64,000 bases of DNA from Streptomyces mirabilis. Lineage in GTDB: Bacteria > Actinomycetota > Actinomycetes > Streptomycetales > Streptomycetaceae. The position numbers and the translations under genes are program-made. This document shows positions 1,443 to 57,331 of this stretch, piece after piece (the stretch's first letter is position 1; every line of letters begins with the position of its first letter). The notes under the pieces are model-generated. The model saw only the letters and a list, made by a program, of their open reading frames with translations, ran no database searches and was not told the DNA's origin. Location of the stretch: positions 6,882,001 through 6,946,000 of the forward strand of contig NZ_JBCJKP010000001.1 of assembly GCF_039503195.1 (NCBI RefSeq), in the 5' to 3' direction.

Positions 1443-1527
1443 CACCCCCTGTTCCACCCCGGTGGGCGCGACCGCTTCGCGCCAGGTCCCTACCCCCTCC
1501 ATGCCCGAACGCAGAGAGGAATGACCG

Positions 1528-1785
1528 ATGCCCGCCTCGATGACCTTCCACGGTGACGCCTCCAGCCGGGTCCGCCTCCACGACTACGGCACCGAGCGCC
1601 TGCCGATCCTGGCGCTCGACGGGGACGGCTACTCCCTGAGCATCTCGGTGTTCGACAGCCGGCCGATCGTCGACCACCAGGCGTTCGCCGAGAAGCTGGC
1701 CAAGGCCGCGGCCGACTACCTCGCGGCCGTGCAGCGCTACGCCGCCGCTCTGCCCACCGACACCGAGACCAGGCAGGTGAGGTGA
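1528..1785 (+). CDS. small hypothetical protein of the AICE
   Basis: This 85-aa acidic protein has no signal peptide or membrane helix. ATG 1528 is preceded by GAGAGGA at 1514-1520 with a 7-base gap, a good ribosome site. The middle part alternates hydrophobic and polar residues (LPILALDGDGYSLSISVFD), then a helix rich in Ala (EKLAKAAADYLAAVQRYAA). I do not recognise a family. It sits between the transfer ATPase and the next small gene, which it overlaps by 4 bases (GTGA). Confidence 0.65.
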   Translation: MPASMTFHGDASSRVRLHDYGTERLPILALDGDGYSLSISVFDSRPIVDHQAFAEKLAKAAADYLAAVQRYAAALPTDTETRQVR

Positions 1786-1994
1786 GCGGCATGTGCGAGC
1801 ACTGCGAGGACTTCCACCGCACGGTGCTGATGCTCGGCTCCCTGGCCCTGTACGCCGACCAGTACGGCGCCGACCACGCCTTCGTGGACGCGATCGCCCC
1901 GTCCATCGCGGCATCCCTTCCCGAGCCCCCGCCGGGCCTGTTCCCGCCCGGCTTCGACCCCACCGACGGCCCCGAGTACCCCGACGAGGAGTGA
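1782..1994 (+). CDS. small hypothetical protein of the AICE
   Basis: This 70-aa protein starts at GTG 1782, overlapping the TGA of the previous gene (GTGA), so it is probably translated by re-initiation. It begins MSGMCEHCEDFHRTVL with a CxxC pair, continues as an acidic helix and ends in a proline-rich acidic tail (PEPPPGLFPPGFDP). No known domain is recognised. The gene ends 3 bases before the next start, so the run 1528-2186 looks like one translational unit. Confidence 0.6.
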   Translation: MSGMCEHCEDFHRTVLMLGSLALYADQYGADHAFVDAIAPSIAASLPEPPPGLFPPGFDPTDGPEYPDEE

Positions 1995-1997
1995 CCC

Positions 1998-2186
1998 GTG
2001 GCCACCAAGAAGACACCCCCGCGACCCGCCCCCACCGCGGCCCCGGCTCCCCCGAAGTGCGGTCCGTGCGACGGCACCGGGGAGGTCGCCACCACGGTCC
2101 ACGTGGGCCGCAAACGCCGCACCGTCGGCAAACAGGCCGGTATCTGCCTGGCCTGCTTCGGCACCGGCGAAGCCACCACCGACTGA
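1998..2186 (+). CDS. small zinc-finger-like protein with two CxxCxGTG motifs
   Basis: This 62-aa basic protein starts at GTG 1998. It carries CGPCDGTGEV and CLACFGTGEA, two CxxCxGTG half-sites 25-30 residues apart. Such half-sites are the hallmark of the DnaJ-type zinc ribbon, so one zinc bound by four cysteines is the expected fold. The N terminus is a basic, Pro/Ala-rich arm. The element has a second protein of this kind at 3695-3877. A role in binding nucleic acid or a partner protein is inference. Confidence 0.65.
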   Translation: MATKKTPPRPAPTAAPAPPKCGPCDGTGEVATTVHVGRKRRTVGKQAGICLACFGTGEATTD

Positions 2187-2259
2187 ACCGCCGGGGCCGG
2201 GCGGCCGGACACCGTTCACCGCCCGCCCCCGGCCCGACCCCCGCGAAGGAGGTGAGGAC

Positions 2260-2904
2260 ATGTCCCGCTCGATCCGCCCGGACGCCGTACTCGTACAGGC
2301 CGTGATCGCCGGTGCGCTGTCCTTCGCCCACCTGCACGACCTTGCCGATGCCGCCGGGCAGACCGGATGGAAGGCATGGGCCTACCCCATCAGCGTCGAC
2401 CTGCTGCTCGTGGCCGCATGGCGCCGGCTGCGGACCGCCCGCAAGGACCGATCGGCGTGGACCTGGTTCGTGATCGCCCTGTTCGCCTCGCTCGGCGCGA
2501 ACATCGCCACCGCCGGACTCCTCGACCTGCACGACGTCCCGGCCTGGCTGTGCATCCTCGTCGCCGGCTGGCCCGCGCTCGCCTTCCTCGGCGGCACCCT
2601 CCTGGTCCACGCACCCGCCGAACCCCGTACACAGCCTGTGGACGAACCGGCCCTGACCGAGGTCGACATGCACCGCGCCGACACCCCGGCCCCGCCCGCG
2701 GCCCCCGAGCTTCCGCCCGCACTGCCCGAACCCGCCGCGCCTGCGGTGACGGTGCCGGCCGCGCTCCTGGACCACGCCCGAAAGATCGCCGAAGCACACC
2801 GCGCCACGACCGGAACCCCGATGGCCGCGGACGCTCTCTCCACCCGGCTCGGACTGCCCGGCCCGATGTCCGCCGCGATCGCGGCAGAACTCCAACTCAC
2901 CTGA
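2260..2904 (+). CDS. DUF2637-type membrane protein (SpdB-like plasmid spread protein)
   Basis: This 214-aa protein has four predicted membrane helices in its first 120 residues (about 8-28, 38-55, 68-90 and 95-118). A Pro/Ala/Glu-rich linker follows, then a C-terminal helical region around TGTPMAADALSTRLGL that resembles a small winged-helix or HTH unit. This is the layout of DUF2637 proteins in Streptomyces plasmids, which take part in spreading DNA within the recipient mycelium. ATG 2260 has a near-perfect ribosome site (AAGGAGGTGAG at 2246-2256). The membrane part probably lies in the septal or lateral membrane with the tail in the cytoplasm. Confidence 0.8.
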   Translation: MSRSIRPDAVLVQAVIAGALSFAHLHDLADAAGQTGWKAWAYPISVDLLLVAAWRRLRTARKDRSAWTWFVIALFASLGANIATAGLLDLHDVPAWLCILVAGWPALAFLGGTLLVHAPAEPRTQPVDEPALTEVDMHRADTPAPPAAPELPPALPEPAAPAVTVPAALLDHARKIAEAHRATTGTPMAADALSTRLGLPGPMSAAIAAELQLT

Positions 2905-2919
2905 CCAGAAGGGACAGAC

Positions 2920-3108
2920 ATGCCCGTCTACCGGCGCTTCCGCAACCTGATCCGCATCGGCCCCGTCGAGGTCGGCACCTACTTCGACGGCCGCGGACGC
3001 AACCGGCACACGGCGGCCTGCACCGCCCCCGGCTGCGGCTTCTCCACCGACTACAACGACCGCGCCGCCGCCGAACTCGCCGCCCGCACCCACCGCTGCC
3101 AGCCCTAG
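2920..3108 (+). CDS. mobile element transfer protein (small Spd-type)
   Basis: This 62-aa basic protein starts at ATG 2920 after AGAAGGGAC. It reads MPVYRRFRNLIRIGPVEVG and later TAACTAPGCGFSTDYNDR, ending CQP. Two cysteines around a CxxxxGC turn plus a C-terminal His/Cys pair suggest a small zinc-binding fold. Proteins with this start and size are standard in AICE transfer regions between the DUF2637 gene and spdD. The biochemical role is unknown. Confidence 0.7.
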   Translation: MPVYRRFRNLIRIGPVEVGTYFDGRGRNRHTAACTAPGCGFSTDYNDRAAAELAARTHRCQP

Positions 3109-3117
3109 GAGACCCCG

Positions 3118-3273
3118 ATGGACGTTCCGCTCTGGCTCGCCCTGATCGTCATCGGCTGGCTCGGCGTCAAGCTCGCCCGCCCGCCCTGGTGGCTCGTGGC
3201 CGTGCTCCTGCTCGGCGGCTACCTCCTCGCCCACAGCTTCCTCGGCCCCGCCGTCGGCACGGCCATCAAGTAA
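3118..3273 (+). CDS. 51-aa membrane protein of the AICE spread region
   Basis: A short gene with ATG at 3118-3120 and TAA at 3271-3273. The product starts MDVPLWLALIVIGWLGVKLA, turns at ARPPWW and re-enters the membrane as a second hydrophobic segment ending in HSFLGPAVG. Two membrane helices joined by a tight RPPWW turn are therefore likely. AGGAGACC lies just upstream of the ATG. Tiny two-helix proteins at this place are typical of Streptomyces spd operons. The function is unknown. Confidence 0.7.
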   Translation: MDVPLWLALIVIGWLGVKLARPPWWLVAVLLLGGYLLAHSFLGPAVGTAIK

Positions 3274-3297
3274 CCCCACCCGAAGGGAGAAAAGCTC

Positions 3298-3600
3298 GTG
3301 TTTACCCCGAAGTACCCGACCCCCGACACCGCCCCGCCCCCCATGCCAGCCCCGGCCGCGAACACCCCGGTGACCTCGGCCCCCGCCCCGGCTCCGGTGG
3401 TGCAGGCCCCGGCGCGGCCCACCGTCCAGCTCACCCCCGGCACCGTCGTCGCCCTCGTCGGTGGCGGTACCGCGGTGGTCCTCGTCGTGGGTGCGGTCCT
3501 GGTCTCGATGCTCCTCGCCGTCGCCATCACGGCCATGTCCGTGGCCCTGTGCGCGGTCGTCCTTCGCTCGCTCCTGAGCGACGTCAACAAGCAGCGCTAA
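3298..3600 (+). CDS. spdD: SpdD-like membrane protein
   Basis: This 100-aa protein starts at GTG 3298, preceded by GAAGGGAGAAA. The first 45 residues are a Pro/Ala/Thr-rich cytoplasmic arm. Two hydrophobic stretches then follow almost without a break (about 49-70 and 71-90), and the protein ends in a basic SDVNKQR tail. This matches the spread protein SpdD of pSAM2-like elements. It is the last gene before a hairpin at 3607-3646, so it may close the spread operon. Confidence 0.7.
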   Translation: MFTPKYPTPDTAPPPMPAPAANTPVTSAPAPAPVVQAPARPTVQLTPGTVVALVGGGTAVVLVVGAVLVSMLLAVAITAMSVALCAVVLRSLLSDVNKQR

Positions 3601-3606
3601 CCGGCC

Positions 3607-3646
3607 CCCGGAGCGGCCTCGGTCGCCAAACTTCCGCCGCTCCGGG
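3607..3646 (+). terminator. hairpin after spdD
   Basis: CCCGGAGCGG at 3607-3616 pairs with CCGCTCCGGG at 3637-3646, a perfect 10-bp stem with a 20-base loop. No T-run follows, so it may be a weak terminator or an mRNA-stability element between the spread genes and the replication genes. Confidence 0.45.
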
Positions 3647-3694
3647 CGCCTCACCACCTTCCAGATCCAACGGACCCGAAAGGGAAGCCCCATC

Positions 3695-3877
3695 ATGCCT
3701 CAGCACGCCCAGAACACGCCCGTCTGCCGTGACTGCGACGGTTTCGCCACCGCCGCGATCACCACCGGCACCCGCAACCGCGACGGCTCCCGCGCCACCC
3801 TCCGTGTCGCCTGCCGGGCCTGCAAGGGCACCGGACGCATCGCCCCCGTCGCCGTCCTCGCCCGCGCCGGGAGGTGA
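3695..3877 (+). CDS. small zinc-finger-like protein (second copy)
   Basis: This 60-aa protein starts at ATG 3695 after AAAGGGAAGCC. It contains CRDCDGFAT near the N terminus and CRACKGTGRIAPV in the second half, with a basic stretch between. This is again a four-cysteine DnaJ-like zinc ribbon, but only the second half keeps the GTG. It is a distant relative or analogue of the product at 1998-2186. The next gene overlaps its TGA. Confidence 0.65.
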   Translation: MPQHAQNTPVCRDCDGFATAAITTGTRNRDGSRATLRVACRACKGTGRIAPVAVLARAGR

Positions 3878-4095
3878 CCGGGATGTTCCGCAAACTCCCC
3901 GCCGACCTCACCCCGACCGAGGAAAGCCCCGGCCTCCGGGTGCGTGGCGGCACGAAGTACACCCGGTCGCAGGGCGACTACGTGTGCGGCTGCGGCGCCG
4001 AGGACCACGCCAACGGCGACAACGACGTCAAGGCCCTGGTCGAGGACTACACCGCCAACCACGGCCCCGCCCATCGCAACGGGGGCCGACGATGA
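3874..4095 (+). CDS. small hypothetical protein upstream of the methyltransferase
   Basis: This 73-aa protein starts at GTG 3874 (GTGA overlap); ATG 3883 is an alternative. It holds RVRGGTKYTRSQGDYVCGCG followed by an EDH motif and a helix, so a small metal-binding fold is possible. Its stop overlaps the ATG of the cytosine methyltransferase (ATGA at 4092-4095), so the two are translationally coupled. I do not recognise a family. Confidence 0.6.
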   Translation: MTGMFRKLPADLTPTEESPGLRVRGGTKYTRSQGDYVCGCGAEDHANGDNDVKALVEDYTANHGPAHRNGGRR

Positions 4096-5192
4096 CCGTC
4101 CTCGACCTCTTCGCCGGCCCCGGTGGCTGGTCTCAGAGCCTGCGCGGTCTGGGGGTGCGTGAGGTGGGAATCGAGATCGACCCCGCTGTCTGCACCACCC
4201 GTGCCGCCGCTGGGCACCTCACGATCCGCGCCGACGTCGCCAACTACCCCACGATGTCGCTTCGCGGGAAGGTGTCCGGTCTGATCAGCTCGGCCCCTTG
4301 CCAGACCTTCAGTGCGGCTGGCCTGCGCGCGGGGAACGACGACCTGCCGTTGTGCCACCAGGGCTTGGACGACATGGCCCGCGGGAACGACACCCGGGCG
4401 AGTCTGCGTGAGGCGTGCTCCGACGCGCGTTCCCTCCTGGTCGTTGAACCTCTGCGATACGCCTTGGACCTGCGCCCCGAGTGGATCGCCCTGGAGGAAG
4501 TTCCCTCGGTGCTGCCCGTGTTCGAGCACAGCGCCCGCCTCCTGGCTGCCGCCGGTTACTCGACCTGGACGGGCGTCCTCAACGCCGCGGACTTCGGCCT
4601 CGCCCAGACCCGGCGCCGCGCTTTCCTCATTGCCTCCCGCACCCGTTCGGCGCTGCCCCCGGAGCCCACCCACGCGAAGGTTCCGCAGTGGGACTTGTTC
4701 GGTGTGCGCCTGGCCCCGTGGGTGTCCATGGCCGATGCGCTGAGTCTGCCGCCCGGGGTCAAGGTCAACACCCGTGGCGACCGCTCAACTGACGAGAGGG
4801 GTCGGTCAGCTGGTGGCAACGAGTTCTCGGCCGACGGCCCGAGCAACGCGCTCACCGGTCGGGCACGCTCCTGGAAACTCCGCTCCGGGCAGGGCTGGAA
4901 ATTGCCCGCTGGTCAGTTCGCTGGCGGCGTTAGCCGGTACGAGCGCGCGATCAGCGAGCCCTCTTTCACCATCACCGGCTCAGCGAACCGCTGCAAGTGG
5001 GTGAAGGACGGAGTCGAGGAACGCAACCTCGCGCTCGCGGAAGCGGCGATTCTCCAATCATTCCCCGCCAACTACCCGTGGGCCGGCTCCCGCACCAAGC
5101 AGTTCGAGCAGATCGGCAACGCCGTTCCCCCGCTGCTCGTCACGGCCGTACTGCGCCCCCTCGTGCCCGCCGCGTCGGAGGTGCTCGCGTGA
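4092..5192 (+). CDS. DNA (cytosine-5-)-methyltransferase carried by the AICE
   Basis: This 366-aa protein transfers methyl from S-adenosylmethionine to C5 of cytosine in DNA. Motif I is DLFAGPGG (residues 4-11). Motif IV is SAPCQTFSAAG, with the catalytic Cys at about residue 70. Motif VI reads ALEEVPSVLP at about 133, so the Glu is kept but the usual ENV Asn is Glu. Motif VIII is QTRRRAF at about 172 and motif X is GNAVPPLL at about 342. The target-recognition region lies between VIII and IX. No restriction endonuclease is next to it, so it is an orphan that may protect the element or set its own methylation mark. It is coupled on both sides (ATGA, GTGA) to its neighbours. Confidence 0.9.
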   Translation: MTVLDLFAGPGGWSQSLRGLGVREVGIEIDPAVCTTRAAAGHLTIRADVANYPTMSLRGKVSGLISSAPCQTFSAAGLRAGNDDLPLCHQGLDDMARGNDTRASLREACSDARSLLVVEPLRYALDLRPEWIALEEVPSVLPVFEHSARLLAAAGYSTWTGVLNAADFGLAQTRRRAFLIASRTRSALPPEPTHAKVPQWDLFGVRLAPWVSMADALSLPPGVKVNTRGDRSTDERGRSAGGNEFSADGPSNALTGRARSWKLRSGQGWKLPAGQFAGGVSRYERAISEPSFTITGSANRCKWVKDGVEERNLALAEAAILQSFPANYPWAGSRTKQFEQIGNAVPPLLVTAVLRPLVPAASEVLA

Positions 5193-51232: not shown

Positions 51233-52078
51233 TCACACGTCCCGGCGCTCCAGCAGCACGTACGCGCCGGCGATCGCCGCCGCCGTCACCCCGGCGAGCA
51301 GACCGAGCTGCGCGACGCCGCTGCCGTTCTCGTTGTTCAGGGCGAAGACCCTGGCGAGGGCGTTGGGAGCGGCGTACTCCTGCATCTTCTCGCCGATCGT
51401 GCGCATGCTCTGCGACATCATCAGGAACGCGGGCAGGATCGCGGGCACCAGCACGACCCCGAGCATCGTGGTGATCGCGCCCGCCGAGTGCCGCAGCATC
51501 GAGCCCACCGCGAGGGACAGGACGCCGAGCAGCGAGACGTACAGCGCACCCTTGACGACCGTGCCGCCCCACGAGACGTGCGAGGAACCGCTGTGCATGG
51601 CCGAGGTCATGAGGCCGACCAGGCCGATGGAGAACACCGAGACGGTGAACGCCACCGCGAAGAAGATGATCAACTTGGCGGTGAGCACCCGGTGGCGCTG
51701 CGGCGAGGCCGTGAAGGTCGTGCGGATCATCCCCGTGCCGTACTCGGAGGAGACGACCAGGACGCCCAGCGTGATCAGGCAGATCTGGCCCAGTATCAGC
51801 CCGAAGAAGGCCGGGATCGTGTACGGCACGTCGCCGAAGTCGGAGTCCTGGGTCTGCGCGGCGACCAGGAAGCCGATGCCGACCACCAGGAGCAGGAAGA
51901 TGCCGAGCGTCCAGAGCGTCGAGCGCACCGACTTGATCTTCGTCCACTCGGAGGTGAGCGCGTGGCCGAGGTGGGTGGGGGTGACCGGGATCGGCGAGCT
52001 GTACGAAGTGCCGGGCGCCGCCTGCCAGGTGGGGGCAGCGGCGGCCTGCTGCGGCATCGGGGGCGGGGGCGTGCTCAT
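51233..52078 (-). CDS. ABC transporter permease (ABC-2 type), pair 1
   Basis: This 281-aa membrane protein has a Pro/Ala/Gln-rich N-terminal arm (about 1-35), then HLGHALTSEWTKIKSVRSTLW and six membrane helices. The stretch EYGTGMIRTTFTASPQRHRV between helices 2 and 3 is typical of ABC-2 permeases. It ends in AAIAGAYVLLERRDV. The ATG at 52078 overlaps the stop of the ATPase gene (ATGA), so the two are coupled. The substrate is unknown; such pairs often export antibiotics, lipids or peptides. Confidence 0.88.
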   Translation of the reverse strand: MSTPPPPMPQQAAAAPTWQAAPGTSYSSPIPVTPTHLGHALTSEWTKIKSVRSTLWTLGIFLLLVVGIGFLVAAQTQDSDFGDVPYTIPAFFGLILGQICLITLGVLVVSSEYGTGMIRTTFTASPQRHRVLTAKLIIFFAVAFTVSVFSIGLVGLMTSAMHSGSSHVSWGGTVVKGALYVSLLGVLSLAVGSMLRHSAGAITTMLGVVLVPAILPAFLMMSQSMRTIGEKMQEYAAPNALARVFALNNENGSGVAQLGLLAGVTAAAIAGAYVLLERRDV

Positions 52079-53310
52079 CGGGCGTCCTCGGGCTTGGTCA
52101 GGTCGGGGGTGGCGGGAGCGGCGGGCGCCGGGGGTGCGACGGGCGGCTGCGCGGGGGCCTGGGGAGCGGGCTGGGCGTACGGGTTGACGTCCGCGGCACC
52201 CGGCGCACCCGGGTTGCCCGGAGCGCCGTAGGGACCCGCCTGCGGGGCGCCCTGCGGCATCGCGAACGGCTGCCCGCCCTGCTGGGGCGGCGGCGGTGCG
52301 TACCAGCCCGGCTGGCCCTGGCCCGCGACCGGCAGCTGCTGCGGCGGCATGGCACCCGGCGGCAGCTCCTGCTGGAGCCCGGCCTTCTGGTCGATGGTCG
52401 AGCGGTAGTCGACGGCGCCCTGTGTCATCCGCATGTACGCCTCCTCCAGCGAGGCCTGGTGCGGAGAGAGCTCCCACAGGCGTACGTCGGCGGAGTGCGC
52501 GAGGTCGCTGATGCGGGGCAGCGGCAGGCCCATCACGCGCAGCGCGCCGTCCTGCTCGGGCAGCACCTGGCCGCCCGCCTCGGTGAGCGCGGCGGTCAGC
52601 TTCTCGCGCTGCTGCGGCTCGGTCTCCGGGGTGCGGACCCGGGCGAAGTCGGCCGAGTTGTGCGAGATGAAGTCCTTGATGTTCTGGTCGGCGAGCAGCT
52701 GACCGCGCCCGATCACGATCAGGTGGTCGGCGGTCAGCGCCATCTCGCTCATCAGGTGCGAGGAGACGAAGACCGTGCGTCCCTCCGCCGCGAGCGCCTT
52801 CATCAGGTTGCGGACCCAGAGGATGCCCTCGGGGTCGAGGCCGTTGACCGGCTCGTCGAAGAGCAGCACCTGAGGGTCGCCGAGGAGCGCGGCGGCGATG
52901 CCGAGCCGCTGTCCCATGCCGAGCGAGAAGCCCTTGGAGCGCTTCTTGGCCACGTCCTGCAGCCCGACCACGCCGAGTACCTCGTCGACCCGGCGGGCCG
53001 GGATGCCCGACAGCTGGGCGAGGCAGAGCAGGTGGTTGCGGGCGTGCCGGCCGCCGTGCACGGCCTTGGCGTCGAGGAGCGCGCCGACCTGGCGCGGCGC
53101 GTTGGGCAGCTTGCGGTAGGGGAAGCCGCCGATGGTGACCTGCCCCGAGGTGGGGTTGTCGAGGCCGAGGATCATCCGCATCGTCGTCGACTTGCCCGAG
53201 CCGTTGGGCCCGAGGAAGCCGGTGACGGCACCCGGCCGCACCTGGAAGGAAAGGTTGTACACGGCCGTCTTGGCGCCGTAGCGCTTCGTCAGGCCGACTG
53301 CCTCGATCAT
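52075..53310 (-). CDS. ABC transporter ATP-binding protein, pair 1
   Basis: This 411-aa ATPase has Walker A FLGPNGSGKSTTMRM, signature FSLGMGQRLGIAAALL, Walker B VLLFDEPVNGLDP and the switch His in VFVSSHLMSEMA. The last 100 residues form an unusual Gly/Pro/Gln/Ala-rich low-complexity tail (QAGPYGAPGNPGAPGAADV). Its paralogue, the pair 2 ATPase, lacks this. ATG 53310 starts the domain. GTG 53319 is an alternative, and neither has a clear ribosome site. Confidence 0.88.
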   Translation of the reverse strand: MIEAVGLTKRYGAKTAVYNLSFQVRPGAVTGFLGPNGSGKSTTMRMILGLDNPTSGQVTIGGFPYRKLPNAPRQVGALLDAKAVHGGRHARNHLLCLAQLSGIPARRVDEVLGVVGLQDVAKKRSKGFSLGMGQRLGIAAALLGDPQVLLFDEPVNGLDPEGILWVRNLMKALAAEGRTVFVSSHLMSEMALTADHLIVIGRGQLLADQNIKDFISHNSADFARVRTPETEPQQREKLTAALTEAGGQVLPEQDGALRVMGLPLPRISDLAHSADVRLWELSPHQASLEEAYMRMTQGAVDYRSTIDQKAGLQQELPPGAMPPQQLPVAGQGQPGWYAPPPPQQGGQPFAMPQGAPQAGPYGAPGNPGAPGAADVNPYAQPAPQAPAQPPVAPPAPAAPATPDLTKPEDAR

Positions 53311-53545
53311 GCTCCGCACCCATCGAAAGGTTCAGGACGTCGGGGCGCACGCCCCCGTAAGGGTTAGGAGGATATCGGGGCGCTGACGGTTCCACTCAAG
53401 AGTAAGTAAAAATGTGCAGGTCACGCGGGGGGCGGGCAGGAGAACGGCCTTACCTGGGGCCTTACCCGCACCCTACCTTTGTCAGGTACCCGTCTTGCCT
53501 GGTCAGGCCGGAAACGGAATCTCCGCAGCCGATACGGAGCACGCC

Positions 53546-54436
53546 TCACACCCGACGGGGAAGCGAGTCGTCCAGCGGCGGCAGGTCGTCGTACAGCCGC
53601 AGCTCGGACGCGTCGTCGACGTACGGCAGGAAGTCCGTCTGCGGCAGTACCCAGCCCTCCTCACCGAAGACCAGCGTGCCCCGCTCGCGCAGCGCGCGGT
53701 CGGCTCCCGCGCGCCGCACCCAGGTGGCCGGGTCGGGACCGAGCAGTTCGCGCAGCCGGGCGGAGTCGGCCAGCAGTGCGGCGAGCAGCTGCGCCTGGTC
53801 ACCGCCGCCCGGACGCGGCTGCCCGGTGGCCGGATCGGCGAGCACCCCGTGCGCGCTGAAGTAGATGTACGCGCCGCCGAGCCGCTCCCCGGAGGGCATC
53901 GTCATCGCGAACGCGTCGCCCGGGAGTATCGCCCGCCGGTAGTCCGGGAACTCGGTGTCGTCGACCGCCTTCAGCTGCGTCGAGTCCAGCCAGGTGACGA
54001 CGAGCGTGGTCTCGGCGCGCGGGTCCACGTACGGCGTCCCCGCCACGTACCCCGCCGGACTGATGTGCCCCGAGCAGCCCACCCCGATGCCGTGCACCCG
54101 CACGGGCACCATCGGCACCGTCGCCGGGATGCCGAGCCGGGTCAGCTTGTGGGCGACCTGGCCGGGGGAGGCGTTGGAGCCGACGGCGATCACCGGGTGG
54201 CGGTGCCCGGTGCCGACCTGCCCGAGGTCGGCGAGCGCCTCGTCGAGCCGCTGCTGCTCCTGGCGCTCCTCGACGTACCACTCGCCGAGCCGCAGCGGCC
54301 GCACGTCGAGCTGGAGCAGTTCGCCGCCGGTGAGCAGCGAGGGCTCGGTGGTGGGACGGCCGGGATAGGTGAGCGGCTGCTTCGCGGGCACGTCGTCCAG
54401 GCCCAGCGCCTGCAGGCTTCGGTCCTTCGTCGTCAC
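53546..54436 (-). CDS. hypothetical protein with a gamma-glutamylcyclotransferase-like motif
   Basis: This 296-aa soluble protein starts at GTG 54436, after GAAGGGCG. The centre contains HPVIAVGSNASPGQVAHKL (about 80-98), which recalls the YGSN motif of gamma-glutamylcyclotransferase-like proteins. VRVHGIGVGCSGHISPAGY and AGTPYVDPRAETTLVVTWLD follow, with strong beta content. The resemblance is local, so the call is tentative. It lies between the two ABC pairs and is divergent from the channel-like gene. Confidence 0.6.
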   Translation of the reverse strand: MTTKDRSLQALGLDDVPAKQPLTYPGRPTTEPSLLTGGELLQLDVRPLRLGEWYVEERQEQQRLDEALADLGQVGTGHRHPVIAVGSNASPGQVAHKLTRLGIPATVPMVPVRVHGIGVGCSGHISPAGYVAGTPYVDPRAETTLVVTWLDSTQLKAVDDTEFPDYRRAILPGDAFAMTMPSGERLGGAYIYFSAHGVLADPATGQPRPGGGDQAQLLAALLADSARLRELLGPDPATWVRRAGADRALRERGTLVFGEEGWVLPQTDFLPYVDDASELRLYDDLPPLDDSLPRRV

Positions 54437-54616
54437 GGTGACGCCCTTCGGGGGTGGTCGCGCGATAGGGGCAACAGCCTTCCACGCGAGGTGTACCCGG
54501 GGCGGGGCCCGGTCTCCCCGTCCGGACGGGGTTGGCCGGAACGGACACCGGGAATCATGCCGTCCCATTGTACGAGTGGGGGCGAAGTGGGTTACGGGGG
54601 AAGTGAGTTGAGGTTG

Positions 54617-55600
54617 ATGAGACGCGGGTGGAGTCGGGTGGGGTCCTCGGGGCGGGGCCGGGCCCATCCGCGCTTCCGTACGTCCGTTCGCTGGTGGATC
54701 GCCGGACGTACCGTCCACGCCCTCCTTCTGATGACGCTGGGCGCGCTGGCCGGGCTCTCCGTCGTCATCGCGACCGCGTGGACGCTCACCGAGCACTCGT
54801 CGCGGTCGATGGCGCAGCGGTTCTCGAACGGGGAGCGGCTCTTCGACCTGAGTCTCGCGGTGCTGCGGGCGAGTGTCGGTACGGACAATCTCAGCCCCGA
54901 GCCGGACAGCACCGCGCACCAGTTGCTCGCCACGGTCGCCTCCGTCACGGGCTCCCTGGTGCCCGCGGTGCTGCTGGGCATCGTCCTGATCAAGATGTTC
55001 GCGCTGCGGCCGTTCGTCTGGCGGCAGCGGGCCAGCATCTCGCACGCCTGGACCGCGGACTTCCCCGGCTACTCGAGGCGCCACGCCGACAGCGAGGACG
55101 CGATCATCGCCGTCCGCTTCTACAACCGCTTCGACAACCTGTCCGTCGTGGATCTGCGCGCCCGTGCCCATCTGCGCTACCTGGAGCGCTCCCCGCACGA
55201 CGGCAGCCTGGTCATCTACAAGCAGTGGCTGAAGGTCCTGGACGCGCAGGGCGAACCGGCCGACGAGCGGTACTGGCTCGCGGTCGAGCGCGGGGCGCCG
55301 TTCACCGTGTGGATACCGGTCGAGGCACCGGTGGCCGAACTGCCGTTCCGGCGTATCCAGGGCAAGGAGCTGTCCGGCTCGTACGGCGTCAAGCTCCTCG
55401 TCCGGCTGACGGCACGGACGGTGGGCCTGGGCACCGAGGTCGCCGACGAGCGCTGGTTCGACCTGGAGGCGGGCGACTTCGAACTCGGCCGCTTCGTGCC
55501 GCTCCAGCCGGACCTGGACAAGGACGTGTGGCGCTGGGAGGGCTGGACGGACTTCGACGCCCTGGAACCCCACCCGAACGGCGAGGACCTCAGGCCCTGA
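54617..55600 (+). CDS. Kir-type potassium-channel-like membrane protein with an altered selectivity filter
   Basis: This 327-aa protein has the plan of an inward-rectifier K+ channel. A basic N terminus is followed by M1 (about 33-55) and a pore-helix-like segment (75-85). A filter-like SVGTDNLSP (86-94) and M2 (about 103-130, GSLVPAVLLGIVLIKMF) come next. A beta-rich C-terminal domain (about 150-327) then resembles the IRK cytoplasmic domain (AIIAVRFYNRFDNLSVVDLR; ERYWLAVERGAPFTVWIPV). The K+ filter TVGYGDLSP is replaced at three key sites (Y, G and D to T, D and N). It probably does not select K+; a different ion or a sensor role is inference. ATG 54617 follows GAGGTTG. Confidence 0.7.
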   Translation: MRRGWSRVGSSGRGRAHPRFRTSVRWWIAGRTVHALLLMTLGALAGLSVVIATAWTLTEHSSRSMAQRFSNGERLFDLSLAVLRASVGTDNLSPEPDSTAHQLLATVASVTGSLVPAVLLGIVLIKMFALRPFVWRQRASISHAWTADFPGYSRRHADSEDAIIAVRFYNRFDNLSVVDLRARAHLRYLERSPHDGSLVIYKQWLKVLDAQGEPADERYWLAVERGAPFTVWIPVEAPVAELPFRRIQGKELSGSYGVKLLVRLTARTVGLGTEVADERWFDLEAGDFELGRFVPLQPDLDKDVWRWEGWTDFDALEPHPNGEDLRP

Positions 55601-55607
55601 AGGTCGT

Positions 55608-56378
55608 CTACGCGTCCCGCCTCTTCAGCAGCAGATAGCCGCCGAGGAGCGCCGCGACCACCCACAGGACCATGATCGCCAGGCCGCCCCAGGGGCCGTA
55701 CGGGGTGTCGTCGCCGATCGGGGTCACCACCCGCATGATCTTGCTGCCGGCCTGGTCGGGCAGATAGCGGCCGATCCTCTTGGTCGCGGACACCGCGCCG
55801 AGGATGTTGGAGATCAGGAAGAAGAACGGCATGAGGATGCCGAGCGAGAGCATCGGGCTGCGCAGCATCGTCGCGACGCCCATCGAGAAGACCGCGATCA
55901 GCGTCATGTAGAGGCCGCCGCCGACCACCGCGCGCAGCACCCCGGAGTCGCTGATCGACGCGCTGTGCGTGCCGAGCGCCGCCTGTCCGAGGAAGAAGGC
56001 GATGAAGCTGGTGATCATGCCGACGACGAGGGCGAGCCCCGCCGCCACCGCGATCTTGCTGAAGAGGAACGTGGCGCGCTGCGGGACCGCGGCCAGCGAG
56101 GTGCGGATCATGCCGGTGCTGTACTCGTTGCCGACCACGAGCACCCCGAACACGATCATCGCGAGCTGACCGAGGGTCATCCCCGCGAAGCTGATGAACG
56201 TCGGGTCGAAGGAGAGCCGGTCCTTCTCGCCCATCTTGTCGAACTCGTTGTTCGACAGCAGCGAGATCAGGATGCCCAGCGCGATCGTGACCACCGCGGC
56301 GAGACTGAGCGTCCAGACGGTGGACGCGACCGACCGGATCTTGGTCCACTCGGACTTGAGGACCTGGGTCGCCGCCAT
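55608..56378 (-). CDS. ABC transporter permease (ABC-2 type), pair 2
   Basis: This 256-aa permease has six membrane helices and is homologous to the pair 1 permease: AATQVLKSEWTKIRSVASTVW at the start, EYSTGMIRTSLAAVPQRATFL between helices, and LGGYLLLKRRDA at the end. It lacks the Pro-rich N-terminal arm. ATG 56378 has GGAGAC upstream. It sits 2 bases after the ATPase gene on the same strand, so they form one operon. Confidence 0.88.
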   Translation of the reverse strand: MAATQVLKSEWTKIRSVASTVWTLSLAAVVTIALGILISLLSNNEFDKMGEKDRLSFDPTFISFAGMTLGQLAMIVFGVLVVGNEYSTGMIRTSLAAVPQRATFLFSKIAVAAGLALVVGMITSFIAFFLGQAALGTHSASISDSGVLRAVVGGGLYMTLIAVFSMGVATMLRSPMLSLGILMPFFFLISNILGAVSATKRIGRYLPDQAGSKIMRVVTPIGDDTPYGPWGGLAIMVLWVVAALLGGYLLLKRRDA

Positions 56379-56380
56379 GC

Positions 56381-57331
56381 TCAGGTCTCCTTGTTCCAGC
56401 CGCCGCCCCACTGCTGGGGCGGGGCATCGGTGTGCGCGTGGTACTCCACCGACTCCGCGGTCAGCCGCATGAACGCCTCTTCCAGGGAGGCCTGCTGGGG
56501 GCTCAGCTCGTGCAGCACGATCTGGTGCTGCGCGGCCAGCTCACCGATCTGCTCCGACTTCGCGCCGTCCACCTCCAGCGTCCCGCTGCCGCTCTCGACG
56601 ACGGTGATCCCCGCCCCGTGCAGGACGTCGAGCAGCCGCTCGCGCTGGGGGGAGCGGATACGGACGTACGACCGCGAGTTCTGCGCGATGAAGTCGGCCA
56701 TGGAGGTGTCCGCGAGGAGGCGGCCCTGGCCGATGACGACGAGGTGATCCGCGGTCAGCGCCATCTCGCTCATGAGGTGACTCGACACGAAGACCGTACG
56801 GCCCTGGCCGGCCAGCGACTTCATCAGGTTGCGGATCCAGTGGATGCCCTCGGGGTCGAGGCCGTTGACCGGCTCGTCGAACATCAGGATCCGCGGGTCG
56901 CCGAGCAGCGCGCCCGCGATGCCGAGTCGTTGGCCCATGCCGAGCGAGAAGCCCTTGGCCTTCTTCCTGGCCACCGAGGTGAGGCCCACGGTGTCCAGGA
57001 CCTCGTCCACCCGCGCCTTGGGGATGCCGTTGCTCTGGGCGAGACAGAGGAGGTGGTTGAAGGCGCTGCGGCCGCCGTGCATGGCCTTGGCGTCCAGCAG
57101 GGCGCCGATGTACTTCAGCGGGTCCTTGAGGTGGTCGTAGTGCTTCCCGTCGATGCGTACGTCGCCCGCGGTGGGGTGGTCGAGGCCGAGCATCATCCGC
57201 ATCGTCGTGGACTTGCCCGCGCCGTTCGGACCGAGGAACCCCGTGACGATACCGGGTCTGACGGTGAAGGTCAGATGGTTGACCGCCACCTTCTCGCCGT
57301 ACCGCTTGGTCAGCCCCTCTAGCTCGATCAT
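56381..57331 (-). CDS. ABC transporter ATP-binding protein, pair 2
   Basis: This 316-aa ATPase shows Walker A FLGPNGAGKSTTMRM, signature FSLGMGQRLGIAGALL, Walker B ILMFDEPVNGLDP and VFVSSHLMSEMA. It is close to the pair 1 ATPase, e.g. GALLDAKAMHGGRSAFNHL against GALLDAKAVHGGRHARNHL. The short C terminus lacks the low-complexity tail. ATG 57331 starts at the domain (MIELEGLTKRYGEK). Upstream the frame has no homology. Confidence 0.9.
   Translation of the reverse strand: MIELEGLTKRYGEKVAVNHLTFTVRPGIVTGFLGPNGAGKSTTMRMMLGLDHPTAGDVRIDGKHYDHLKDPLKYIGALLDAKAMHGGRSAFNHLLCLAQSNGIPKARVDEVLDTVGLTSVARKKAKGFSLGMGQRLGIAGALLGDPRILMFDEPVNGLDPEGIHWIRNLMKSLAGQGRTVFVSSHLMSEMALTADHLVVIGQGRLLADTSMADFIAQNSRSYVRIRSPQRERLLDVLHGAGITVVESGSGTLEVDGAKSEQIGELAAQHQIVLHELSPQQASLEEAFMRLTAESVEYHAHTDAPPQQWGGGWNKET

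Follow-up and report, generated by a model that had tools for sequence, protein, structure and literature searches.

We analysed a Kir-like gene of Streptomyces mirabilis, located on the plus strand of a 64,000-nucleotide stretch of contig NZ_JBCJKP010000001.1 (hereafter referred to as the window, in whose coordinates all positions below are given unless a locus is named). We lean towards the view that its product is a far-diverged tetrameric cation channel of Kir architecture, similar to the NirBac channels, through which monovalent cations pass with little or no preference for K+. In the mechanism that we propose, the K+ filter would be replaced by [CS]-[VI]-G-T-D and four subunits would assemble into a tetramer, which would conduct with loss of K+ selectivity, as the precedents of NirBac1.1, NirBac1.2 and NaK suggest. 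A ring of four Asp90 residues would stand at the filter, possibly balanced by the invariant Arg84, and the cytoplasmic domain may gate the pore via a lipid or a small molecule. The gene and its predicted parts are as follows (AF2, AlphaFold2; M1 and M2, the two membrane helices).

54608..55600, plus strand: Kir-like gene, probable start TTG at 54608 (330 aa), alternative start ATG at 54617 (327 aa)
54686..54703, plus strand: short helix ahead of M1, where Kir channels have the slide helix (residues 24-29; AF2 model, low confidence)
54713..54790, plus strand: M1 (residues 33-58; AF2 model)
54830..54877, plus strand: pore helix (residues 72-87 in the AF2 model)
54872..54898, plus strand: filter-like loop SVGTDNLSP (residues 86-94; translation, hhalign and MAFFT)
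54911..55003, plus strand: M2 (residues 99-129; AF2 model)
55013..55486, plus strand: beta-rich cytoplasmic domain of Kir type (about residues 133-290; AF2 model, Foldseek and MAFFT)

The filter-like loop and its conservation

Merging of identical loci from two collections left 17 distinct intact copies of the gene, all from Streptomyces, and one truncated copy in addition (locus L011). The K+ filter TxGYG/TxGFG was absent from all 17 intact copies, which instead contained [CS][VI]GT[DG] within the pattern R-A-[CS]-[VI]-G-T-[DG]-[NS]-[LI]-x-P starting at residue 84. R84, A85, G88, T89 and P94 were identical in 17/17 copies, and V87, D90 and L92 in 16 each, the exceptions being Ile87 in L021, Gly90 in L010 and Ile92 in L020. 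Residue 86 was Cys in 13 copies and Ser in four (the window, L001, L002 and L005), residue 91 was Asn in 13 and Ser in four, and residue 93, which is Ser in the window, was variable. Because the loop is common to the 17 intact copies, we regard it as more than a chance resemblance. An earlier note on this DNA had named conservation of SVGTD in orthologues as a sign of function; such conservation was seen for the GTD core and for the loop as a whole, but not for Ser86, and the Ser that the note had counted among the residues matching the K+ filter (Ser93) turned out not to be conserved.

To quantify conservation by region, we counted invariant columns among 16 aligned sequences. The filter block (residues 84-94) had 5 invariant columns out of 11, M2 9 out of 27, M1 5 out of 26, the pore helix 2 out of 11, the stretch ahead of M1 9 out of 15 and the cytoplasmic domain 55 out of 138. 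Gly112 and Pro116 of M2 were invariant in our alignment A1, as was the Arg131-Pro132 pair that follows this helix. Nei-Gojobori estimates, obtained with our own script from 15 pairs that all include the window sequence and hence are not independent, gave dN/dS values of 0.09-0.23 in the ten closest pairs. Judged from these codon comparisons, the Kir-like gene is under purifying selection.

The open reading frame and the loop sequence SVGTDNLSP reported in the earlier note were found as described, the frame running from the ATG at 54617 to a stop codon that ends at 55600 and encoding 327 residues. The ATG thus opens this frame, but the conservation of a TTG across the copies makes position 54608 the probable true start of a 330-aa protein. 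This TTG lies nine bases 5′ of the ATG and follows a purine-rich stretch; among 17 copy starts compared, it was kept in L020 and in all 12 close copies, the window among them, and was not seen in the same form in L017, L018, L019 and L021. An ATG at the position of 54617 was present in 6/12 close copies. Two other candidates were rejected: a GTG at codon -10, where most loci have GTC, and the whole 728-codon frame 53414-55600, since orthologue similarity starts at about residue 14-17.

Fold and sequence likeness to Kir channels

The AF2 model, computed from 15 sequences, had a mean predicted local distance difference test score (pLDDT) of 71.8 and a predicted template-modelling score of 0.55, with pLDDT below 50 for residues 1-31. 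Its elements followed the Kir order, namely slide helix, M1, pore helix, loop, M2 and beta-rich cytoplasmic domain, and from M1 on this agrees with the order read from the letters in the earlier note. A Foldseek search of the PDB with this model returned 165 matches at E ≤0.001, and among the best 50, which were listed, 50/50 were Kir channels or Kir chimeras (E 1.1e-11 to 7e-10), so that the Kir-like structure proposed before is borne out by the prediction. They included KirBac3.1, Kir6.1, Kir6.2, Kir4.1, Kir7.1 and a Kir3.1 chimera; one row titled 'transmembrane protein' (9ma5_B) has inward rectifier channel 10 as its molecule name. The listed matches spanned 270-325 columns and covered both domains at 12-16% identity. 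KirBac3.1 (1xl4, 2wln and others; E 1.5e-11 to 7e-10, 270-306 columns) has the same element order as the window protein at 12-15% identity, and differs from it in the filter (TIGYGKL versus SVGTDNL) and in the stretch from M2 to the first R-x-x-N strand, which is longer in the window protein. The model thus predicts a Kir-type subunit fold, in which M1, pore and M2 are followed by a beta-rich cytoplasmic domain.

Profile comparisons were made with a four-sequence KirBac profile (A2, made up of a KirBac3.1 fragment and three Kir sequences from plasmids, two of Synechocystis and one of Caballeronia) and with a five-sequence KirBac/Kir profile, in which A2 was supplied with full KirBac3.1 and human Kir2.1 sequences. 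In global mode, hhalign scored 11.47 against the five-sequence profile, whereas the best shuffles reached 5.78 (60 full-column shuffles) and 6.67 (200 hydropathy-keeping window shuffles). The hhalign alignment placed VGTDNLSP on the KirBac filter, and a separate MAFFT alignment paired VGTDNL with IGYGKL, matched the Arg-Pro after M2 and set VRFYN of the cytoplasmic domain against the Kir R-x-x-N motif. Taken alone, these sequence alignments to the KirBac filter are only suggestive of Kir kinship. As a side observation, a KirBac match on a Synechocystis sp. B12 plasmid (L031, 441-1084) is annotated as two short hypothetical proteins and is possibly split.

Precedents and the weighing of the channel proposal

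Kir channels whose filter is not of the K+ type have a published precedent, which the earlier note did not name. According to the part of the source available to us (PMC4607889), NirBac1.1 and NirBac1.2 of Anaeromyxobacter are Kir channels without TxGYG that form tetramers, pass Na+, K+ and Rb+ with little selectivity and are activated by POPG (palmitoyl-oleoyl-phosphatidylglycerol), and NirBac1.2 shows no Ca2+ permeation. The window protein shares with them a Kir architecture lacking TxGYG, and is set apart from them by a loop that can still be aligned to the K+ filter. The same part of that source describes NirBac2.1 (YP_002762692) of Gemmatimonas aurantiaca, which has the filter TTGTD and is ~35% identical to KirBac1.1 (PMC4607889). 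This protein and the window protein have the Kir architecture in common, and TTGTD and SVGTD/CVGTD have Gly, Thr and Asp at matching places, a likeness known from the loop alone. Unlike NirBac2.1, the Streptomyces family is missed by sequence searches that include KirBac. Gemmatimonas aurantiaca belongs to another phylum than Streptomyces, and we know of no TTGTD channel besides NirBac2.1. Of the features of NirBac channels, the Streptomyces family has the Kir architecture with a non-TxGYG filter (alignment, AF2 and Foldseek), and does not have recognisable overall KirBac homology, as seen from the lack of sequence matches in the PDB and the 12-16% identity of the fold alignments. Because both TxGYG and recognisable sequence homology were looked for and not found, we class the family as NirBac-like and as a member of neither Kir nor NirBac.

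Our proposal of weak selectivity draws on the precedent of published Kir channels that lack TxGYG and are non-selective. A filter of another kind is that of NaK, TVGDGN, described as non-selective in the portion of PMC9822992 consulted. The window loop has V, G and N in common with it at corresponding positions. If the NaK filter continues with FSP, the Pro of the window would match as well; NaK is not known to have a Kir cytoplasmic domain. The Streptomyces family is not of the NaK type, its loop containing VGTD in place of TVGDG and a Kir-type domain being present. An unusual filter might, on the other hand, confer a definite selectivity, either for K+ or, via the Asp90 ring, with a preference for divalent cations. 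We consider this unlikely, although it stays alive because the Kir homologue TbIRK, with the filter GGYVG, keeps a K+/Na+ ratio of >7 (PMC5429665, from the part available). TbIRK resembles the window protein as a Kir homologue without TxGYG, and is unlike it in being K+-selective, eukaryotic and resident in acidocalcisomes, as the same part of that paper has it. The near-constancy of D90 and the invariance of T89 would fit a definite selectivity, whereas the weak selectivity of NirBac1.1 and NirBac1.2, the lack of Ca2+ permeation in NirBac1.2 and the Gly90 of L010 argue against it.

A number of observations weigh against the weakly selective channel that we propose. Asp90 stands where the K+ filter has its second Gly, and the pore helix of the AF2 model takes in the first two residues of the filter and ends at residue 87, with the result that no standard extended filter is drawn; the model is of a single chain, and a monomer model cannot settle the shape of the filter. 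The listed Foldseek matches had template-modelling scores by query length of no more than 0.36-0.51 and root-mean-square deviations of 5.8-9.6; these high deviations over two domains may reflect a different tilt of the membrane part relative to the cytoplasmic part in the model. The protein matched no Pfam family, IRK (PF01007) and IRK_C (PF17655) included, and neither of these two matched any of 15 members at E ≤10, for which two chance names were all that appeared (best E 0.08); neither phmmer nor hmmsearch found a match among PDB chains, KirBac included. NCBIfam gave one match for the Kir-like protein, far under the cut-off. Local hhalign comparison yielded E 0.11 and a probability of 0.5% with A2, and a score of 28.3, E 0.0056 and a probability of 6.6% with the five-sequence profile; the best shuffles scored 27.5 (100 full-column), 31.3 (100 window-10) and 24.0 (100 window-20), 1/100 window-10 shuffles thus beating the real alignment. 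To the same side belongs the state of NirBac2.1, whose expression and purification were problematic and which was left unassayed as a channel (PMC4607889, in the part available).

The missing profile matches, the low hhalign probability and the moderate model confidence would favour the explanation that the protein is no Kir relative at all: it would have two helices and a beta domain, and its likeness to Kir channels would be convergent or a prediction artefact. This is very unlikely, given that the listed fold matches were without exception Kir channels or chimeras, aligned over both domains, and that the global hhalign score beat 260/260 shuffles (60 + 200).

Three further points on the adverse side concern the history of the gene. 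The five most distant of the 15 pairs had dN/dS values of 0.29-0.57 (with dS of 0.48-0.66, perhaps underestimated), the gene was present in 9/150 drawn Streptomyces genomes, the window's genome counted, and in L011 (Streptomyces sp. NBC_01549, 6001-6378) it was reduced to residues 200-327. The genes flanking this remnant were 92-99% identical to those of the window, and most of the DNA ahead of it had no match. The patchy distribution and the remnant would suit a former K+ channel now in decay, a structural relic being one of the options in the earlier note. We regard this as the most improbable of the explanations because of the low dN/dS of the ten closest pairs, and the 17 open copies likewise speak against it.

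Distribution, neighbourhood and the GGCT-fold partner

A scan of GTDB species genomes found 11 loci, in Streptomyces only. A draw of 296 genomes from the class gave five matches, of which three were real and all from Streptomyces, and a draw of 346 genomes from the phylum gave three, of which two were real; as 6-7 candidates were scored per genome in these two draws, relatives at great evolutionary distance may have escaped them. Three loci, L022, L023 and L026, were dropped as relatives on account of weak E values (0.001-0.004) and match lengths of 52-92 residues; the matches in L022 and L026 sit over ABC (ATP-binding cassette) transporter genes, and that in L023 (36%, to residues 14-105) lies inside a 1081-codon frame. 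With the Kir-like protein as query, tblastn of plasmids gave one Bradyrhizobium match (E 0.6), and viral contigs gave none. The S. mirabilis genome itself had no second family member among 54 scored candidates. A search of it with IRK_C gave no match, nor did the control, so that this search is uninformative; IRK gave one weak match and none over the cut-off in 246 class genomes, with 0/14 controls over the cut-off. The genome encodes three ordinary K+ channels with the filters TVGYGD, TVGYGD and TTGYGD, and the Kir-like gene therefore need not supply K+ selectivity.

The surroundings of the gene comprise the following features.

53546..54436, minus strand: gene of GGCT/AIG2/ChaC fold, divergent from the Kir-like gene (model and Foldseek; putative GTG start at 54436)
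54530..54610, no strand assigned: conserved block between the two divergent genes (alignment of 9 loci)
55608..57328, minus strand: ABC-2 permease (55608-56378) and ABC ATPase (56381-57328), downstream of the Kir-like gene (Pfam and synteny)
51233..53319, minus strand: the other ABC-2 pair of permease and ATPase, on the far side of the GGCT-fold gene (Pfam and synteny)

ABC-2 type ATPase/permease pairs thus flank the gene, as noted before, with the GGCT-fold gene as a further gene between them; the permease of the 51233-53319 pair scored slightly below the Pfam gathering cut-off. Along the locus, an ABC pair is followed by the GGCT-fold gene, the oppositely directed Kir-like gene, the other ABC pair and then two coiled-coil genes that we take to be FilP-like and Scy-like, the former with a DivIVA match slightly below the Pfam cut-off. 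The full order was kept in 15/17 loci, truncated L011 included. L001 is a short contig, whose covered part has the same order, and in L036 (a 55% copy, 13 kb covered) the GGCT-fold gene was the only one of these to accompany the Kir-like gene. In the latter locus, a glycine-betaine type ABC transporter (OpuAC) lies two genes from the Kir-like gene; its permease is fused to two OpuAC domains with long identical stretches (1470-4100), by the look of the sequence a recent internal duplication. The intergenic block reads GGGAAT...ATTGTACG...GGTTACGGGG, varies slightly in some loci and may represent a shared regulatory region and ribosome-binding site; a promoter and terminator scan found no sigma-70 site and no terminator.

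The divergent neighbour had no Pfam or NCBIfam match. Its model, with a pLDDT of 95.5, gave eight fold matches at E ≤0.001 (2.3e-4 to 9.2e-4), to human GGCT (gamma-glutamylcyclotransferase), ChaC-type enzymes and two Arabidopsis proteins; a match titled LOC79017 is presumably GGCT, and we take the Arabidopsis proteins to be AIG2-like. Glu161, invariant in 26/26 members, presumably corresponds to the catalytic Glu of GGCT enzymes. On this model, the neighbour has a gamma-glutamylcyclotransferase fold, which is a fold assignment and not proof of activity. Matches to this gene (E ≤1e-10) were found in 66/150 Streptomyces genomes, as against 9/150 for the Kir-like gene; many of them cover the protein in part, at 43-51%, and could be paralogues. 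A second, partial match (49%) occurs in the S. mirabilis genome at G000:C1:1649145-1649705.

We inspected 18 GGCT loci from genomes lacking the Kir-like gene, and found no Kir-like neighbour, either by tblastn (E <1) or when frames of at least 180 codons were screened crudely for helices plus the motif. Nine of them (L046, L047, L050, L051, L052, L054, L056, L057 and L059) have an empty site, where the second ABC permease adjoins the GGCT gene with <0.4 kb between the matches, too little to hold a gene of 1 kb; the other nine had no such permease within the stretch covered. In a tree of 34 GGCT-fold proteins, 15/16 Kir-associated members formed one clade (support 98/92), with L036 apart; two changes in all account for the tree, with which a single origin of the Kir association is also compatible. 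From the neighbourhood alone, we infer that the GGCT-fold enzyme is the likeliest functional partner of the Kir-like protein, beside which its gene stays even where the other neighbours differ.

This constant neighbourhood is also what a non-conducting sensor or scaffold of Kir fold might show, in which the loop would be retained because it serves assembly or binds a ligand, and the cytoplasmic domain would signal to a partner, either the ABC-2 transporters or the GGCT-fold enzyme. The concentration of invariant columns in the cytoplasmic domain, their scarcity in the pore helix and the model without a normal filter point the same way. However, the filter block has as high a share of invariant columns as the cytoplasmic domain, more than one would expect of a loop that does no more than close a gap, and NirBac1.1 and NirBac1.2 conduct in spite of the absent TxGYG. 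We therefore rate the sensor as doubtful, with the caveat that sequence cannot separate it from a channel of other selectivity.

Returning to the channel of weak selectivity, what is new is a stable lineage with a GTD-type filter in Streptomyces, invisible to Pfam and NCBIfam, with a clean present/absent site and a divergent GGCT-fold partner gene. A literature search (prokaryotic Kir, KirBac, NirBac, NaK, FilP/Scy and Streptomyces ion channels), covering mostly titles and the beginnings of abstracts, returned no title on this family. A bolder extension, which we rate as a long shot, is that the GTD-type filter would form a distinct cation filter class that arose in Kir-fold channels of two phyla or more (represented by NirBac2.1 of Gemmatimonas and by the Streptomyces lineage), and that a gamma-glutamyl or thiol metabolite under control of the GGCT-fold enzyme would gate the Streptomyces channel, the two genes forming a metabolite-gated ion leak for osmotic or thiol stress.

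Relatives of K+ channels are usually recognised by their filter; here, a Kir fold escapes both Pfam and NCBIfam, and a non-TxGYG loop is kept under selection across part of one genus. The 17 natural versions, one of them with Gly90, provide a ready series for examining the minimum needs of a Kir pore in conduction and selection. Problems with expression and purification kept NirBac2.1, which has the same G-T-D, from being studied. The physiological role of bacterial Kir-type channels is described as still unclear (PMC4607889, in the part available); for the Kir-like protein, the GGCT-fold partner offers a lead to such a role.
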